From the NCBI GenBank assembly GCA_937872175.1, contig CALMPI010000013.1, positions 1 through 64,000 of the forward strand: 64,000 nt of DNA, given 5' to 3'. The notes under the pieces were generated by a model that saw only the letters and a list, made by a program, of their open reading frames with translations, was not told where the DNA came from and made no database searches. A program made the position numbers and the translations under genes. The stretch comes from an uncultured Flavobacteriales bacterium (lineage in GTDB: Bacteria > Bacteroidota > Bacteroidia > Flavobacteriales_F > PHOS-HE28). Below are positions 14,779 to 57,783 of the stretch, piece by piece (within the stretch, counting starts at the first letter, position 1; the number at the start of each line of letters is the position of its first letter).

Positions 14779-15193
14779 CGCGGCGAAGGTGCGAAAGGCG
14801 GGGCAAGCAGCTTCAGGTCATCCCGCGCACAGGCCACCAAGCGACCCTGCACCCACGGGCCGTCACGCTCGCGCATCTCATTCCCGGCGTGCCGCGGGAC
14901 CGCATGACGCGATGAGGGGTCGCCCATCCCCGGACCGTGCATCCCTTGCCTCCGCACCGTCACGGCGAGGCGTTGCGTGAGCTAGTGTGTGGAGCGCCGT
15001 GGCGGTCTCCCGCGAGCGGACGGGAACTCCATCGCCCCGCCAGGTGAAGGGCATATGAAGTTTTCAACCGGCAGCACCAACTGGCTTGTCGTCGACTATT
15101 TTCGACCTGCCATGCCTGCCGTGAAGCATACCCCAGTGAACACGGACCACACGGATCGCCACTATTGGCGTGCGCTGCACGTGGACGGCTTGT

Positions 15194-15324
15194 GGCCGGA
15201 AGCTGGCAGCCTGCGGCTGGAGGCTGGAAGCTGGAAGCTGGGGGCTGGAGGCTGGCGGCTGGCGGCTGGAGGCTGGCGGCTGGAGGCTGGAGGCCGACAA
15301 GCCGACAAGCCGACAAGCCGACAG
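15194..15324. repeat. GGCTGGA-type tandem repeat followed by four GCCGACAA units
   Basis: About thirteen degenerate 7-mers (GGCTGGA, AGCTGGA, GGCTGGC) and then four 8-bp units (15293-15324). The same order, ending GGAGGCCGACA, recurs at 17595-17650. A relative lies at 59440-59518. Confidence 0.85.
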
Positions 15325-15373
15325 ATCCTCGATCGAACAAGGTAGACCCGGCACATCCATCCCGAATAAAAGA

Positions 15374-15401
15374 AGCCCCCGGCGCGCAAACACCGAGGGC
15401 T
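15374..15401. terminator. hairpin, possible terminator (copy A)
   Basis: Arms AGCCCCCGG and CCGAGGGCT with one mismatch. On the minus strand it is followed by CTTCTTTTATT, a fair terminator tail. A near-identical copy sits at 17699-17726. Confidence 0.5.
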
Positions 15402-15696
15402 CTGGTCGCTCATGTCCCACTCAACCCACTGGTATAGGTAAACGAAACTGAGCAGCGCGAAGATAAGGTGCCCCATGGCCATGAAGGCAGCACCGGCCGT
15501 CGATCGGCGGTCTTGACAATGGGCCCACCCGCCAGGGATACGGCGGGGTACGCCAGCGGGGCCGCAACGCTGGGGCGTACCTCTCACAGCGGTGACCGGA
15601 CCGATGCACCGGGGAACAAGGCCACCACAGCGTGGCGCCCGGCGCTTCACCGACAACGAACAAGACCTGCTCTGGGCCAAGACCCAGAGACGAACG

Positions 15697-16719
15697 ATGC
15701 TTCCTCACGCGATGAACGACAGGTGGCCCGGCAGAGGCTCCAGCTTGCTGCTGGGCTGCTTGTTGTTCGTTGCCCCTCCGCGCTGTGAAGCGCAGACCAA
15801 CCTCGTACCCAATGGATCTTTTGAAGAAACAGATAGCTGCCTCGAGATCAACACCTGGTACTACCCGGAGACCGGCCCTCTCGGCTGGTTCTCCACCGCT
15901 GGCTCGGGGGACTACTACCTGAGTTGCCTGCCTTACGGCGCCTTCAACGGGATGCCGTTGAGCGCGTGGGCTTTCCAATATCCACAGGATGGGTCGGCGT
16001 ATGTGGGTGTTGCAACCTACAGTGTGAACGCACAGTCACGAGAGTACTTCACCATTGAATTGGCTGAACCGCTGACCGTGGGATCCACCTATTACGCGAG
16101 CTTCTATGCCAGCGCTTCATGGAATGGCTGGGAGGAGTATCCACAGTACTACATAGCCTCAAGTAAGATAGGGATGCGGTTCACCATGGAAGCGCAGCAA
16201 TGGGAGTTCGGCGACCCGTTGCCTGAGTTCACGAACGCGGCACAGGTGTACTATCCCGCCATCCTATCCGATACGGTGAACTGGGTGCTGGTGAGCGGCA
16301 GTTTCGTGGCGGATAGCGCCTACCGCTATGTGTCGATCGGCAATCACTTTGACAACGCCCACACGGATACGTTGCATCTTGGTACTTCCATCCAATATGC
16401 AAAGGCTCATACGCTCATCGACAACGTGTGCGTGAGCACAGATCCGTTGGGCTGCCCGCTAGCGAACAGTGTCGCGGAGGCTGCTGCTGATCAGATCGTA
16501 CTTTTCCCGAATCCCGTGGATGATGTAGTGCGGATCCGCGGCGTGGAAGCTGGGTTGCGGATCACCATACACGATGTGTGTGGGCGGCTGCTGTGGCAGG
16601 ATAGGGGCACAGGAGGTGTATTACACTGGGAAGTGGGAGACAGCGCTCCCGGCCTGTACATGTTGCGGGTTGAGCAAACCGGAGGATATCGTTCGTTCAA
16701 GTTCGTCGTGAAAGAATAG
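15697..16719 (+). CDS. secreted T9SS cargo protein with LVPNxSFE domain
   Basis: 340 aa. Signal peptide (about 1-30, LLLGCLLFVAPPRCEAQ), then an N-terminal beta-rich domain beginning NLVPNGSFEETDSC and ending ...TLIDNVCV (about 33-245), and a T9SS type A sorting domain from VLFPNPVDD to the C-terminus FKFVVKE (about 268-340). It would cross the outer membrane through T9SS and be surface-anchored. The N-terminal domain is shared with 17934-18890 and with the OmpA-family protein at 56527-57714. Function unknown. GC content is lower than in housekeeping genes nearby. Start at 15697; an ATG at 15712 is possible. Confidence 0.82.
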   Translation: MLPHAMNDRWPGRGSSLLLGCLLFVAPPRCEAQTNLVPNGSFEETDSCLEINTWYYPETGPLGWFSTAGSGDYYLSCLPYGAFNGMPLSAWAFQYPQDGSAYVGVATYSVNAQSREYFTIELAEPLTVGSTYYASFYASASWNGWEEYPQYYIASSKIGMRFTMEAQQWEFGDPLPEFTNAAQVYYPAILSDTVNWVLVSGSFVADSAYRYVSIGNHFDNAHTDTLHLGTSIQYAKAHTLIDNVCVSTDPLGCPLANSVAEAAADQIVLFPNPVDDVVRIRGVEAGLRITIHDVCGRLLWQDRGTGGVLHWEVGDSAPGLYMLRVEQTGGYRSFKFVVKE

Positions 16720-16760: not shown

Positions 16761-17420
16761 ATGAAAACGAGAAAATCGATAAGGCCTTTGGCATTTGCCA
16801 TGGTCACATTATTCTTGGTGCCTTTGCAGGCACAGGTGACGCAGCTTGGGAATTTCCCTGGAACCCTCCTTCCGCCCGACTACGTAGGCTGGAACGGATC
16901 CACCACCATTCCCTTGGAGGTACGCCACAACGGCAACCAGCCCATCGAGTTCTGGACGGATAGCATCCAACGGGTGGAACTGAACCCGACGGAGAGCTAC
17001 GTGGTGAACTCCAGCTTTGGGGCCAAGACGGCCAACGGGTGGATGTTGCTGAGCCCGGACATCGCCAACTTCCTGAGCGGGGCCAACGGGCCGTACAGCC
17101 TGCTGCACCTGGCTGCGGCCACCAACAACGCCCAGACCAGCAGCGACCGGCCCTGGATGAACGTGGGCATGACGCTCACGGGCAACAGCGACCACAGCTA
17201 CGTGGGGCAGAAGGCCAGGGCGGCGGACAAGACGGACATGGTGATCCACTGGAGCGACAACCCGGCCACCTGGTACGGCCCGGACCGCTTGCGCTTCCTG
17301 TTCACCAGCGGCTACAGCAGCTCCAGCGCTTCCGGGGCCTACAGCGAAGAAGGTTTGGAGGGCATGCGGCTGTATCCGGTGACGCCGGATGAGGTGAATG
17401 TCGGCCTCGGGGATTGGTGA
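16761..17420 (+). CDS. truncated copy of a T9SS fibre-like protein
   Basis: 219 aa with signal peptide (LAFAMVTLFLVPLQAQ, about 10-25). Residues from about 79 on are encoded by a 399-bp block almost identical to 19112-19510 in the large gene downstream (399 bp, one mismatch seen). The large gene continues for hundreds of residues, but this copy stops six codons after the block (GLGDW). It lacks the fibre repeats, chaperone domain and sorting domain. It is probably a decaying partial duplicate, although secretion as a short protein is possible. Confidence 0.7.
   Translation: MKTRKSIRPLAFAMVTLFLVPLQAQVTQLGNFPGTLLPPDYVGWNGSTTIPLEVRHNGNQPIEFWTDSIQRVELNPTESYVVNSSFGAKTANGWMLLSPDIANFLSGANGPYSLLHLAAATNNAQTSSDRPWMNVGMTLTGNSDHSYVGQKARAADKTDMVIHWSDNPATWYGPDRLRFLFTSGYSSSSASGAYSEEGLEGMRLYPVTPDEVNVGLGDW
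16997..17395 (+). repeat. 399-bp duplicated block, copy 1
   Basis: Matches 19112-19510 at constant offset 2115 with one difference (T at 17018 against C at 19133). Sequences on either side are unrelated or only weakly similar. Confidence 0.95.
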
Positions 17421-17594
17421 ACGCAAACCTTACTGGTCATGGGCATTCTGATAGTAAACCTATCACAGTTGAAATCCGCAATTTTTCAACAGAAGGCACC
17501 AACGCGTCGATCTCGAATTACATTGGTTCCGCCATGCAGCAACTACTTCCAATCAGGATCGTCGCAGACCGCATGGCGGGCTGCATGCGTGGGG

Positions 17595-17650
17595 TTGGCG
17601 GCTGGTGGCCTGAGGCTGGAGGCTGGAGGCTGGAGGCTGGAGGCCGACAG
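17595..17650. repeat. GGCTGGA-type tandem repeat ending GCCGACA (copy B)
   Basis: Same units and same end as 15194-15324, but with one GCCGACA instead of four. Confidence 0.8.
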
Positions 17651-17698
17651 AACATGGACCAATGAAGGTAAGTGGCCCCACCACTGCCACCACGAAGA

Positions 17699-17726
17699 AG
17701 CCCCCGGCGCGTGAACACCGAGGGCT
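17699..17726. terminator. hairpin, possible terminator (copy B)
   Basis: Arms AGCCCCCGG and CCGAGGGCT around a 10-nt loop. The flanks GAAG and TGGTCGCTCA are shared with copy A. Confidence 0.5.
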
Positions 17727-17933
17727 TTGGTCGCTCAACATTCACCCCCTAAGGAATAGGAACATGAACACGAGCTAGCACAAAAGTACCGACCCGGGCC
17801 GGAACAGCCGCACGCCGGCCCGCGGCGGTGAGCACCCGCAGCACCAGGTGCTGTGCGCGAAGGCAGCGCGACCAAGGGTCGGGCACGTCCTTCCTGTGCC
17901 GAAAGAGGCGGAGTGAAGAACAAGTAGTTGAAC

Positions 17934-18890
17934 ATGCAGCGAGCTTTCCTTCTTCACTTGATGAACCTGGCCCTCGCCGCGATGGCGACGGCCCAGAACC
18001 ACGTGCCCAACCCCAGCTTCGAGGACACCACGGCCTGCAACACGCCGACGCAGTGCACCTTGCTAAAGGCCACCGGGTGGTACAACCCCAACACGGCCAC
18101 GCCGGATGTGTGGGATTGCGACCTGAACCGCAGCTGTGGCGCGGACATGGAGCCCAACGGACCCAATGGACCGGCCTACCAATACGCCCGCACCGGCACA
18201 CGGTTGGCCGGGATCTACGCGTGGTATGGTGCCGGTAGCTCGAACACCAGGGAGTACCTGATGTGCGGTCTGTCGTCGCCCTTGGCCGTTGGTCAGGCCT
18301 ATATCGTTTCCATGTGGTATGCGCGGCGCCGGACTTTCAGCCTGGCCGTGGATCACCTGGGGGTATGGTTCGGGGCCGACAGCCTGCACGAGCCACACCC
18401 CAACTGGTTGCACGTAACGCCGCAGCTGAAGCTTCGGGACCCGAACAGTGCCTTCCTGGTGGAAGACGACCTGTGGACGGAGCTCCGGGACACGCTGGTG
18501 GCCGAGGGTGGGGAGACCTGGATGGTCGTGGGTCATTTCGCCGAGGCCGACTCGGTGGTCGGTCTGGTGGTGGATCCCTTGGACCCGGATACCTGGGCGT
18601 ACTACTACGTGGATGACCTGAGTGTGGAACCGATCGGCGGGGAGAACAGCGTCCTGGAGCACGAACTCGTCCTGCGGCCCTTGGTGGGCGGCGTGGGGAT
18701 CCGGTGGCCAGCAGGTCCTCCGATCGAGCGTGTGGAGCTGCTGGACACCGGTGGGCGCTTGATCCTCCAGGTGCAGCCTGGTGCTGGTGATCAGGAGCTG
18801 ATCGTTGATCTCCAAGGGTTGAGCGCCGGGGTCTACCTGGTGCGTTGCACGGGGGGGAGCGAACAGACAGTGGCACGGTTCATCAAGTAA
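17934..18890 (+). CDS. secreted protein with LVPNxSFE domain
   Basis: 318 aa. Signal peptide (about 1-20, LLHLMNLALAAMATAQ), then NHVPNPSFEDTTAC...YYYVDDLSVE (about 21-235), the same domain type as in 15697-16719 and 56527-57714. The C-terminal 75 residues (from VLRPLVGGVGIRW to VARFIK) have the look of a degenerate T9SS sorting domain, with LLDTGGRLIL and GVYLVRCTGG. ATG at 17934 is preferred over a TTG two codons upstream. 33 nt separate it from the next gene. Function unknown. Confidence 0.8.
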   Translation: MQRAFLLHLMNLALAAMATAQNHVPNPSFEDTTACNTPTQCTLLKATGWYNPNTATPDVWDCDLNRSCGADMEPNGPNGPAYQYARTGTRLAGIYAWYGAGSSNTREYLMCGLSSPLAVGQAYIVSMWYARRRTFSLAVDHLGVWFGADSLHEPHPNWLHVTPQLKLRDPNSAFLVEDDLWTELRDTLVAEGGETWMVVGHFAEADSVVGLVVDPLDPDTWAYYYVDDLSVEPIGGENSVLEHELVLRPLVGGVGIRWPAGPPIERVELLDTGGRLILQVQPGAGDQELIVDLQGLSAGVYLVRCTGGSEQTVARFIK

Positions 18891-18923
18891 GGAGGAGGGT
18901 TCGGGCACGAATGCCTGAACACG

Positions 18924-20657
18924 ATGAAACACAGAACATGGCTCATGGCCCTGTGCCTGAGCGTGACCGTGGTGCGGTCACAGACCTACTGGGAGACGAC
19001 CGGTAATACCGGCATGGACCCGGTGACGAACTTCATTGGGAACACGGACAATCAACCGATGAACGTGCGTACCGATGACGACTGGCGATTGCGGGTGAAC
19101 AAGACGCAGAACTACGTGGTGAACTCCAGCTTCGGGGCCAAGACGGCCAACGGGTGGATGTTGCTGAGCCCGGACATCGCCAACTTCCTGAGCGGGGCCA
19201 ACGGGCCGTACAGCCTGCTGCACCTGGCTGCGGCCACCAACAACGCCCAGACCAGCAGCGACCGGCCCTGGATGAACGTGGGCATGACGCTCACGGGCAA
19301 CAGCGACCACAGCTACGTGGGGCAGAAGGCCAGGGCGGCGGACAAGACGGACATGGTGATCCACTGGAGCGACAACCCGGCCACCTGGTACGGCCCGGAC
19401 CGCTTGCGCTTCCTGTTCACCAGCGGCTACAGCAGCTCCAGCGCTTCCGGGGCCTACAGCGAAGAAGGTTTGGAGGGCATGCGGCTGTATCCGGTGACGC
19501 CGGATGAGGTCCACGTGGGCATCGGGGACTTCTACGCGGCCAATCTGTCCGACCCGACCATCACTGAACCCGAAGAGCGGGTGGATGTGGTTGACGGTCG
19601 GGTGCGGATCCGCCAGTTGCCGAACGAGGCGGTGATGGACACTACGGACCAATTCGTGGTGGTGAACGAGGATGGGGTGCTGGGCTGGCAGAACATCGCC
19701 GCGCTGCCGGACAATTGCGAGTGGACGATGAGCACGGGATCGCAGCATGTGTGGACGGCTGTGGGTCCTACGGATCCCGCTTGTCCAGATGGTGATGAGA
19801 ATGTGGGGATCGGTACGAACAGCCTGAGCGACGGCACCAAGCTCAACGTTCTGGAGAACACACCGCATTCGAGCCTGGCGAACCGGGGCCTCTTTGTGCG
19901 TACGGAGATCCCTTCGGGCTCCAGCGGTGCCGGAGCCACCTGCGTGGGTGCGCGTGCCGAGGCGGCGAACGCAGCGACGAACGTGGGCCTGCAAGGGGCG
20001 GCGACATCATCCAGTGCATTAGCCGCAGGCAGCAACTACGGGGTCGAAGGCGCTGCGACCGGCTCAGGTACGGTAACGAACAACCATGCCGGGCACTTCA
20101 CGGCCACCGTGGCGAACGGTGCGGCTGTCACTTCGAACCGTGGGCTGTTCTCCACCGCGACGAACAACAACGGCAGTGCGTTGAACCACGGCGGGGAATT
20201 CCATGCGTACAGCTCGGGAACGAGTGCGACGAACCGCGGCGTGGAGACCTATGTTCAAGGCACCGGGTCAAGCCAGAACAACATCGGCGTTCGGACCTAC
20301 GTGTACAGCACAGGCAGCAGCTCCACGAACCATGGGGTGTGGAGCCGGGTGGATGGGGCCAGTTCAAGCACGAACATCGCGGTGTATGGCCAGGTGGGTG
20401 ACACCTTGACCAATCACTGGGCAGGGTACTTCCAAGGTCGTGTTCAGGTGACCGGCAGCATGTGGAACAACGGACCTTCATCTTCTCGGACGCCGACATC
20501 AAGACCAATGTGGAGGACATCGAAGGGCCGGATGCGGCCGATCTGCTGGGACAGCTCGTACCACGGACATACACCTACCAAAGCGCTCAGTATCCGCGAT
20601 TGTACCTCCCAAGCGGACAGCAGTATGGCTTCATGGCGCAGGAAGTGGCGCAGGTGA
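18924..20657 (+). CDS. T9SS fibre-like protein, N-terminal part, frameshifted
   Basis: Signal peptide (about 1-20), the NVVNSSFGAKTANGWM-type domain that is also found in 16761-17420, then a repetitive beta region (about 330-515) with units such as NRGVETYVQGTGS and NHGVWSRVDGAS, typical of fibre or adhesin shafts. At about 20470 the frame is lost: the last 65 codons (after SMWNNG) are out of register, and the expected continuation FIFSDADIKTNVEDIEG occurs in the frame starting at 20462. A missing base after AACAACGG explains it. The intact gene would span 18924-21190, about 755 aa. It could be a real mutation, phase variation or a sequencing error. Confidence 0.8.
   Translation: MKHRTWLMALCLSVTVVRSQTYWETTGNTGMDPVTNFIGNTDNQPMNVRTDDDWRLRVNKTQNYVVNSSFGAKTANGWMLLSPDIANFLSGANGPYSLLHLAAATNNAQTSSDRPWMNVGMTLTGNSDHSYVGQKARAADKTDMVIHWSDNPATWYGPDRLRFLFTSGYSSSSASGAYSEEGLEGMRLYPVTPDEVHVGIGDFYAANLSDPTITEPEERVDVVDGRVRIRQLPNEAVMDTTDQFVVVNEDGVLGWQNIAALPDNCEWTMSTGSQHVWTAVGPTDPACPDGDENVGIGTNSLSDGTKLNVLENTPHSSLANRGLFVRTEIPSGSSGAGATCVGARAEAANAATNVGLQGAATSSSALAAGSNYGVEGAATGSGTVTNNHAGHFTATVANGAAVTSNRGLFSTATNNNGSALNHGGEFHAYSSGTSATNRGVETYVQGTGSSQNNIGVRTYVYSTGSSSTNHGVWSRVDGASSSTNIAVYGQVGDTLTNHWAGYFQGRVQVTGSMWNNGPSSSRTPTSRPMWRTSKGRMRPICWDSSYHGHTPTKALSIRDCTSQADSSMASWRRKWRR
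19112..19510 (+). repeat. 399-bp duplicated block, copy 2
   Basis: Partner of 16997-17395. It lies in the complete-length fibre gene, so this is probably the donor. Confidence 0.95.
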
Positions 20658-21190
20658 TCCCGGCCGTCGTGAGCAGCACCATTGTCCCCGCTGAGCTGGA
20701 CAGCATGGGCAACATGGTGCATCCGGAAATGGATGTGGAGGGCATCAATTACACGGCGCTCATCCCGATCATGATCGCCGGTTACCAGCAACAGCAAGCC
20801 ACCATCAACTCCTTGCAGGACCAGCTCGCTACGGTCCAACAAGACCTCGCCACCTGCTGCGCGGCCCACGGCAGCACGGATGGGCGCAGCATGAGCCTTG
20901 GGACGGGCGCAGGGGCAGGAGAGGCCCTGCGCACAGACCTGATCATCGTGCCCAACCCGGTGGCGGATCACACCCAGCTGCGGTACACGGTGGCCACGCC
21001 GGGCCGCACGCGGCTGGAGGTGAGCGATGCCAGTGGCAAGCGGCTGGAGGTGCTGGAGGAGGCCGTGCGGGAGGCCGGTGCCTACACCCACGACTGGACC
21101 ACCACGGATCTGGCGCCCGGCACCTACCACGTCACGCTTTACCTCAACGACAGCTTCGTGGTGAAGAAGGCCGTGAAGGTGGCGCGATAG
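20462..21190 (+). CDS. C-terminal part of the fibre protein: S74-type chaperone and T9SS sorting domain
   Basis: 242 codons in the second frame. Residues about 4-75 (FIFSDADIKTNVEDIEG, LLGQLVPRTYTYQ, YGFMAQEVAQVIPAVV) match the intramolecular chaperone / peptidase_S74 family, which trimerises fibre proteins and is often self-cleaved. A coiled coil follows (QQQATINSLQDQLATVQQDL, about 110-135), then a T9SS sorting domain (LIIVPNPVADHTQL to VVKKAVKVAR). The GTG at 20462 is a formal start only; this is almost certainly the other half of 18924-20657. Confidence 0.8.
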   Translation: MEQRTFIFSDADIKTNVEDIEGPDAADLLGQLVPRTYTYQSAQYPRLYLPSGQQYGFMAQEVAQVIPAVVSSTIVPAELDSMGNMVHPEMDVEGINYTALIPIMIAGYQQQQATINSLQDQLATVQQDLATCCAAHGSTDGRSMSLGTGAGAGEALRTDLIIVPNPVADHTQLRYTVATPGRTRLEVSDASGKRLEVLEEAVREAGAYTHDWTTTDLAPGTYHVTLYLNDSFVVKKAVKVAR

Positions 21191-34584: not shown

Positions 34585-34958
34585 TACAGCCGATCCGTGA
34601 AGGGGTTCGGGAAGGGAGGAGGCAGGCTGTCCTCAGCGTGCGGCCTGGCACCGGTGCCGATGCACAGGGGATGCGCCTCGAAGAACGACCACAGCTCGGC
34701 ACTGGCCTGGATGTCCTCGTTGGTCTGCCCAAGCAACGGCTCCAGGAAGGGGATCTCCACGCCGGGCCAGGTGTGCCCGGCCCCGATCAGCCGGAACAAG
34801 CGCACATCGGCCCCGCACACGCAGCCGGTGATGTCCACCCGTTCCACCGTGCTGCTATCATCGCTCACCAGGTCGGGCAGCACTTGCTCCACCACATGGC
34901 CGGCGGATCCACCGGGGGAGGACCGCTCCCGAGCATGCGAATGAGCGGGATATCCCAT
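34585..34958 (-). pseudogene. C-terminal remnant of a PHB-depolymerase-like esterase with T9SS domain
   Basis: A minus-strand frame encodes VDITGCVCGADVRLFRLIG, then GAGHTWPGVEIPF, GQTNEDIQASAELWSFF and AHPLC. This is the end of LpqC/PHB-depolymerase family alpha/beta hydrolases, including the catalytic His in GHTWPG. FPNPFTDRLYL, the start of a T9SS sorting domain, follows and then breaks at the fhs fragment. The N-terminal two thirds with the nucleophile Ser are absent upstream. It is therefore truncated at both ends. Confidence 0.7.
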
Positions 34959-56526: not shown

Positions 56527-57714
56527 CTACCGCTCCAGCACGGTGAACTCCACGCGGCGGTTCTTCGCGCGGCCCTCCTCGGTGGCGTTGTCCGCCACGG
56601 GCCTGCTCTTGCCGTAGCCCTTCCAGCTCAGCCGCGCGGCGTCCACCTTCTCCTTCACCAGGTGGTCCACCACGGCCTTCGCCCGGTCGTTGCTCAGGCG
56701 GATGTTGTAAGCCTCGCTGCCCTGGTCGTCCGTGTGCGCGCCGATCTCGATCCGCATGTGCGGGTAGTCGGTGAGCAGGTGCACCACCTTCTCCAGTTCG
56801 GCGTGGCTCTCGGGCTTCAGCTCGGCCTTGTCGAAGTCGAAGAAGATGTGGTCCAGCACGATGCTCTTGCCCACCTCGGGCTCCACGCGGGGCAGCTCCA
56901 CCTGGGCCGTGCCGGCGTGGTCGGCCACGCGCACCTTCGGCGGCGGCGGCACGCTCTCCTTCGGCCTGGGGCTCAGCGTGCTGCCCGGCGGCGCCACCCG
57001 CACGTTCACATCGTCCACGAAGTAGTAGGCGCCGCGCTCGCCCTCGGGGAAGCGTTCATGCTGCGTGGCCTCGTCGCTGTAGAAGTTGCCGACGAGCAGG
57101 AAGCGCTCACCGCCGGTGGCCTCGATCACGCCGCTCACCTTGTGCCAGCCGCTCTTCCTCACCAGCTTGTCCTCGTTCACCGACGGGGTGATGTGCAGCG
57201 GCAGGCAGTCGCGCGAGCTCACGGGTTCCGGCGCCAGCAGCAGGCCGATGTTGTTGCTCGCCTCGTTGCTGAAGCTGGCGCGCATCACCCAGCACTCGGC
57301 CACATAGTGCACCCCGGCCTCCAGCGGCGCGGTCAGCTCGATCTGCAGGTACTCGTGCCAGTGCGTGGGCGTGTTGCCCCGGCCCCAGGTCTTGATGCCC
57401 GCCATGGCCTCCCCGCCGTGCGGACGCGCGCGTCCCCCGGTGCGTTTGCCGGGGTGGCTCCAGCAGCCCGGGTCGCTCTGCAGGCTGAAGTGGTCCGGCG
57501 TGGTCTCCGTCGGGCTCGTCCACCCCACCATCACCTCCTCGTTGAACTTGCGGGCGTCCTGCGTCCAGGCGCATTGCAGCCGCTTGGTCTCCTCGAAGCC
57601 GGGGTTGGGGACGAGGTTCGGCATCGTGTCGGCGTTCAGCGTGCGTTGCAGACCGGTCTGTGCCAGCATCGGCGCGGCGGCCAGCAGAGCGGGAAGGAGG
57701 GCGGTACGGACCAT
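56527..57714 (-). CDS. OmpA-family protein with LVPNxSFE domain
   Basis: 395 aa. Signal peptide (about 1-18), N-terminal domain NLVPNPGFEETKRLQC...AYYFVDDVNVRV (about 32-240), related to those in 15697-16719 and 17934-18890, a Pro-rich linker (KESVPPPPKVRV), and a C-terminal OmpA peptidoglycan-binding domain (about 285-395; IFFDFDKAELKPESHAELE, IEIGAHTDDQGSEAYN, LSNDRAKAVVDHLV, NRRVEFTVLE). It is a periplasmic or outer-membrane protein tied to peptidoglycan, possibly presenting the N-terminal domain outside. Confidence 0.9.
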   Translation of the reverse strand: MVRTALLPALLAAAPMLAQTGLQRTLNADTMPNLVPNPGFEETKRLQCAWTQDARKFNEEVMVGWTSPTETTPDHFSLQSDPGCWSHPGKRTGGRARPHGGEAMAGIKTWGRGNTPTHWHEYLQIELTAPLEAGVHYVAECWVMRASFSNEASNNIGLLLAPEPVSSRDCLPLHITPSVNEDKLVRKSGWHKVSGVIEATGGERFLLVGNFYSDEATQHERFPEGERGAYYFVDDVNVRVAPPGSTLSPRPKESVPPPPKVRVADHAGTAQVELPRVEPEVGKSIVLDHIFFDFDKAELKPESHAELEKVVHLLTDYPHMRIEIGAHTDDQGSEAYNIRLSNDRAKAVVDHLVKEKVDAARLSWKGYGKSRPVADNATEEGRAKNRRVEFTVLER

Positions 57715-57783
57715 GTGGCGAAACTACCCGGGCCCACGGGGCGCTTCCTGGCGGTTCCGGCGGTGATCATGAACAACCCTTCG

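Follow-up and report, generated by a model that had tools for sequence, protein, structure and literature searches.

A mosaic family of predicted surface fibres in an uncultured Flavobacteriales bacterium, with a near-identical head segment as the probable hinge of recombination

We analysed a stretch of 64,000 nucleotides (the window; positions 1 to 64,000 of contig CALMPI010000013.1) from an uncultured Flavobacteriales bacterium, in which two near-identical 399-bp blocks lie in two successive genes of a putative surface-fibre family. The blocks belong to one segment of these genes, here called the head, and we consider it probable (roughly 75%) that they are part of a surface-fibre mosaic generated by homologous recombination, in which the block serves as a conserved hinge and not as the variable part. 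An earlier note, made from the window alone, had read the pair as a recent duplication creating a truncated gene copy, with the block as a possible swappable part for antigenic change; nothing in the data points to a host or an immune system. Comparison with other copies gave a different picture: the block is the most conserved, homogenised segment, and the leader, the upstream partner gene, the stem and the S74 domain vary around it. Truncated heads are a recurrent and older feature of the genus, and the two window units differ in leader and partner gene. At the sequence level, homogenisation of heads, reassortment of parts and a fixed polarity of short copies are all apparent.

The two blocks and the genes that carry them

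The segment names leader, head, neck and stem are our labels for profile segments, not database names; NPSFE, taken from a shared motif, labels the secreted protein encoded ahead of both the short and the full fibre gene of the window. T9SS denotes the type IX secretion system. The features are as follows.

15043..15470, no strand assigned: intergenic element before unit 1, with a TTTTCAACC-type motif, a GGCTGGA-type variable number tandem repeat (VNTR) and a minus-strand hairpin; homologous to elements preceding other fibre units
15697..16719, plus strand: NPSFE1, secreted protein with a T9SS type A sorting domain (TIGR04183, 28.7 bits; NPSFE profile, 2e-122)
16761..17420, plus strand: short fibre gene, B-type leader and head, without stem, S74 domain or T9SS tail (profiles)
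16997..17395, plus strand: homogenised head block, copy 1 (1/399 against copy 2)
17414..17927, no strand assigned: intergenic element before unit 2, beginning at the end of the head homology
17694..17795, minus strand: promoter-like box TAnnTTTG and hairpin, candidate small RNA (conserved copies)
17934..18890, plus strand: NPSFE2, secreted protein with a jelly-roll-like N part (model and fold search) and a T9SS tail (TIGR04183, 26.4 bits)
18924..20657, plus strand: full fibre gene, 5' part, A-type leader, head, neck and stem; frame lost before S74 (profiles)
19112..19510, plus strand: homogenised head block, copy 2 (1/399 against copy 1)
20462..21190, plus strand: full fibre gene, 3' part in another frame, S74 chaperone domain and T9SS tail (PF13884, TIGR04183)

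Exact comparison of the two blocks gave a single mismatch in 399 bp, as the earlier note had counted; it is a synonymous T/C difference at block position 22 (TTT/TTC). Identity is unbroken over 377 bp at most (starting at 17019 and 19134), and a blastn match extends to 433 bp at 97.7% identity through weaker likeness at both edges. Because of its length alone, this identity cannot have arisen by chance. The short gene (219 amino acids, aa) has its own start codon and a hydrophobic leader, in agreement with the signal peptide first proposed for it. After the block it continues with AAT GTC GGC CTC GGG GAT TGG and then TGA, thus with seven codons and not six. The leaders of the short and full genes showed only distant likeness by alignment and form separate classes (B and A type), and NPSFE1 and NPSFE2 share 46.5% DNA identity over aligned codons. 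A fresh partial duplication is ruled out by these differences in leader, NPSFE gene and downstream sequence, and also by the recurrence of short forms across the genus; of the two origins first considered, recombination between cassettes stood and partial duplication did not.

The short protein had no Pfam or NCBIfam match and lacks a T9SS sorting domain. A phage origin was dropped when tblastn against a phage collection of 50,697 records returned no match, and the predicted structure was unusable (pLDDT, the model's confidence score, 33).

Copies, reassortment and accompanying features

We compared the window with the rest of its own genome (G000, a 4.30-Mb assembly of 52 contigs; the window is G000:C13:1-64000) and with relatives chosen by name ('Flavobacteriales bacterium' metagenome-assembled genomes). 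Further block copies with other leaders or tails, which the earlier note had suggested looking for, were found in both. A third copy in the own genome (C10:4187-4585, minus strand) is 99% identical and lies inside a 226-residue short frame with other, unique flanks; it matches the window full gene at 98.6% over 437 bp. Since this likeness reaches beyond the block, conversion has also occurred between loci. The head is encoded at 10 places in the own genome (E <= 5.2e-8), with five weaker ones matching the leader region only. It was present in 28 of the 58 genomes searched: 27 of 35 within the genus (own genome counted) and one of 23 outside.

The head was found at 40 of the 44 loci fetched, and short and full copies stood together at 11 of them, where every short copy (19/19) lies upstream of the full gene. 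The recurrent unit across the genus is an element followed by an NPSFE T9SS gene and a fibre gene; the longest array, which is in the single-contig genome G009, has five head pieces and then one full gene. Of the 19 short copies, 11 stop within positions 76-88 of the 126-position head profile, the others at 45, 57, 95, 96 and 124-126. We do not claim a special truncation site or site-specific recombination, the 11 endings being non-independent and the remaining ones lying elsewhere. The truncation joint of the own C12 short copy is common to G025, so that this short form either predates the species split or moved as a unit.

The degree of homogenisation was estimated from synonymous substitutions per site (dS). 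Full-gene orthologues in the sister species G025 and G033 share the leader-head joint of the window gene and are 89.5% and 90.0% identical to it in the block (head dS 0.65 and 0.54). The window copies are near-identical and the sister-species heads ~10% apart, and therefore the window copies were homogenised after the split from those species. As the orthologues share it, the full gene's leader-head joint is the older one, and hence it is most likely the head of the short gene that was replaced afterwards. Short-versus-full head dS was 0.05 for the window pair (127 codons, edges included), 0.10 for C12, 0.06, 0.04 and 0.02 for G009 shorts 1-3 and 0.08 for G022 short 2. The accompanying NPSFE pairs, covering the window, C12 and G009, gave 2.5, 1.45 and 1.0-2.1, respectively.

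Reassortment extends to tails, chromosomal sites and species. For 34 genes with both domains, the head and S74 trees rejected each other (deltaL 1297 and 992; approximately unbiased test, p-AU 3.4e-4 and 3.4e-32). Best matches per domain conflict likewise: the window head is 95% identical to that of G025_C24 and the window S74 domain 85% to that of G023_C23, and the S74 domain of G025_C24 belongs to the type found in own C37 (84%). The own C40 gene is C10-like in head and neck (91-100% per 30-codon window) and equals C12 exactly over 432 aligned bp of stem and S74; this mosaic carries an assembly caveat because the C40 fibre lies at a contig end. Two G024 genes ~3 Mb apart (L073:5723-8119 and L075:6381-9056) are 98% identical over their 3' 1.7 kb and have different heads; both tails contain the same in-frame TAG, a nonsense codon spread by recombination.

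The window-type head cassette occurs at three chromosomal sites, with three tails, in three species. In the own genome the window head/NPSFE2 type stands at the PRODH site, in G025 at the C42-kinase site and in G033 at the C36 site. The G025 kinase flank is homologous to own C42 from position 34847 onward, a place that carries no fibre in the own genome; G033:C235 matches the C36 downstream flank (91.5% over 684 bp), and in G023:C23 a different fibre again adjoins this C36-type flank. From 20639 on, the PRODH side of the window runs collinear with G033:C115 for 8 kb, and the window-type tail is kept there. These flank matches are one-sided, as the sister assemblies break off at these places. 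In G026, G025 and G033 (L085, L087 and L089) the fibre 3' end abuts a flippase gene in opposite orientation; in the window, unlike these sister species, it is the 5' end of the array that meets the flippase gene (14805). Judged by gene order, the flippase-side locus is rearranged or inverted relative to the sister species. In C51, a transposase-like gene, which we take to be of IS5 type, occupies the start (L013:11-859) of a 6.8-kb contig bearing a fibre unit.

The S74 domain of the full gene (20462-21187) scored 47.4 bits with PF13884 (cut-off 22), and the fibre tail is a T9SS type A sorting domain (TIGR04183, 27.7 bits); all three window tails exceed the curated cut-off of 23 bits. The T9SS translocon SprA is encoded in the own genome (TIGR04189, 2566 bits). 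S74 lies on the C-terminal side in phage-type (endosialidase-chaperone) fibres, and it does so here; unlike in those fibres, a T9SS sorting tail follows it. Autocleavage and a trimeric fibre are further marks of S74 chaperone-tailed proteins and may apply here as well. The reading frame is lost within 20402-20657, just ahead of S74, whereas sister-species genes of this S74 type (G026_C73 and G033_C313) cross the site in one frame. The frame loss may be a real mutation or an assembly error.

The NPSFE partner is a predicted T9SS-exported, probably jelly-roll protein; its structural model (pLDDT 57) is firm in the T9SS tail only (residues 243-320). The jelly-roll part rests on Foldseek matches led by CBM4, a phage baseplate tripod and Kgp cleaved-adhesin domains, all with low TM-scores. 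The tail aligned with the C-terminal domains (CTDs) of RemA (Z 9.2, root-mean-square deviation (rmsd) 2.1, 74 residues aligned) and mirolase (Z 9.8, rmsd 1.8, 71 aligned), and other Ig-like or FnIII-like domains reached equal Z scores. By sequence, NPSFE matched T9SS tails in the PDB, and the head had no match there. The NPSFE1 open reading frame (ORF) is open already from GTG 15592. A further NPSFE-like gene lies at 56530-57723 (minus strand), with no fibre domain found beside it.

In both intergenic elements a minus-strand TAnnTTTG-like box precedes a GC-rich hairpin by ~60 nt (17694-17795 and 15369-15470). All nine matches to this arrangement in the own genome lie at fibre units, and 23 copies were aligned; on sequence grounds it is a candidate small RNA or leader. 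A match to the Rfam family 'sar' (17693-17769, minus strand) was not accepted (29.5 against a gathering score of 43). Long matches to the unit-2 element occur only at fibre units, and the short ones are almost all in its VNTR part. The GGCTGGA-type 7-bp repeats (15195-15299 and 17594-17650) are also scattered genome-wide outside fibre loci.

Proposed mechanism and alternatives

We propose that the blocks represent the conserved head domain of a fibre family with the order leader, head, neck, stem, S74 chaperone and T9SS sorting tail. Exchange among members of the family, by gene conversion and crossing-over, would keep many heads near-identical, within arrays and across loci, and the same recombination would reshuffle partner gene, leader, head and tail. 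Ordinary homologous recombination of the RecA type is presumably responsible, most often with the head as its hinge. If the two window blocks crossed over, 2.1 kb would be lost and the partner gene and leader of unit 1 would be joined in frame to the existing tail; the computed ORF has 593 aa versus the present 577, and both halt at the same frame loss. The spacing of 2115 (3 x 705) was dropped as a clue, as recombination at homologous codons stays in frame at any spacing. The benefit would be a diversified exposed surface, for adhesion or for evasion of phage or grazers.

Several observations weigh against this proposal. The full gene is frame-broken before S74, and therefore the window crossover would give no intact fibre. 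In a sample of one genome per species, no within-strain switching was seen, and fibre expression and surface display are predictions. Some short-full pairs are unhomogenised: at C10 the short and full copies carry heads of two types, the short one being 53% identical to the C10/C40 head type, and head dS was 1.01 for G009 short 4, 0.86 for G022 short 1 and 0.60 and 1.51 in G004. Homogenisation is also not specific to the head, as S74 domains (C40/C12) and T9SS tails are shared too.

The main rival is a neutral form of the same recombination, in which tandem duplications end in the head and conversion homogenises the copies with no selection for switching. We regard it as possible though somewhat improbable. 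A duplication starting upstream of a unit and ending in the head leaves a truncated copy upstream, and this alone would yield the uniform polarity; in G009 and G022 the ends of the short copies seem to have been copied as units, and broken tails do occur, as in the G024 pair. However, neither window unit is a tandem copy of the other, their partner and leader classes being different; reassortment reaches across loci and species; and the NPSFE genes of short units remain open, with a nonsynonymous-to-synonymous ratio (dN/dS) of 0.15-0.34 in nine pairs. Since plain tandem duplication also predicts the polarity, we put adaptive switching at about even odds or less.

Tentatively, the short units may also be viewed as mirror-image orphan modules: upstream 5' cassettes, each comprising a regulatory element with the candidate small RNA, a secreted adhesin-like gene, a leader and a head, whose near-identical head would be a dedicated hinge through which whole pairs of adhesin and fibre tip are exchanged on a single exported tail that stays the same.

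It is unlikely that the short genes are instead working Sec-exported leader-head proteins without a tail, for example partners of the neighbouring NPSFE protein. No stop interrupts their ORFs between start and junction, the junction common to own C12 and G025 speaks for persistence, and the C12 short and full heads differ by five synonymous and no nonsynonymous changes. Yet the window short protein has no T9SS tail and therefore no evident route to the surface, sequence past the shared junction is not conserved, and conversion with full genes can account for the low dN. Erroneous placement of a single block twice during assembly is very improbable: the fibre-bearing contigs C10, C40, C12 and C51 do end at or near repeats, but the copies differ at one base, the third copy on C10 has unique flanks, single-contig G009 has the same architecture, and the leader-head joint of the full gene recurs in G025 and G033.

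Relation to known systems and meaning

In substance, the closest system is the mosaicism of Porphyromonas gingivalis T9SS surface proteins (Kgp/HagA adhesin domains), in which rearrangement of domains and exchange between alleles create diversity (PMC5266723). Both involve T9SS-exported surface proteins, and the low-confidence NPSFE model resembles Kgp cleaved-adhesin domains. The variation described there is among strains and at few loci, whereas here partial head copies form arrays upstream of S74 fibres and reassort across many loci. In form, the closest are orphan Rhs modules with the ends reversed. As with these (PMC3967940), partial copies stand beside a full gene and could be fused to it by recombination; Rhs orphans lie downstream without start or export signals, and the pieces here are 5' ones, upstream, with start codon and leader. 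No toxin domain was found in the five window proteins scanned (Pfam, NCBIfam), and no toxin or immunity gene was recognised. Because the displaced ends are 5' and such genes were not recognised, we do not count the family among Rhs or contact-dependent inhibition (CDI) systems. The silent-cassette systems such as vlsE and tprK similarly involve several partial copies and gene conversion by segments; in the present family it is the shared part that stays constant and the flanks that vary, and no single expression site was identified. Systems of pilS/vls/tprK type have promoterless silent copies and one expression site; the short copies here keep start codon, leader and upstream partner gene and may be expressed or silent.

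Searches of the open-access PubMed Central literature returned no account of such arrays, and we claim no wider absence from print. The system is real and recombination-driven. It suggests a way in which a T9SS bacterium can build varied exposed fibres out of 5' cassettes kept in store, with the Rhs orphan geometry reversed, and head identity set against partner-gene divergence offers a marker by which long-read data could be screened for arrays of this kind. Should switching indeed occur, the selector of surface variety, phage or grazers, would become directly testable in these uncultured bacteria.

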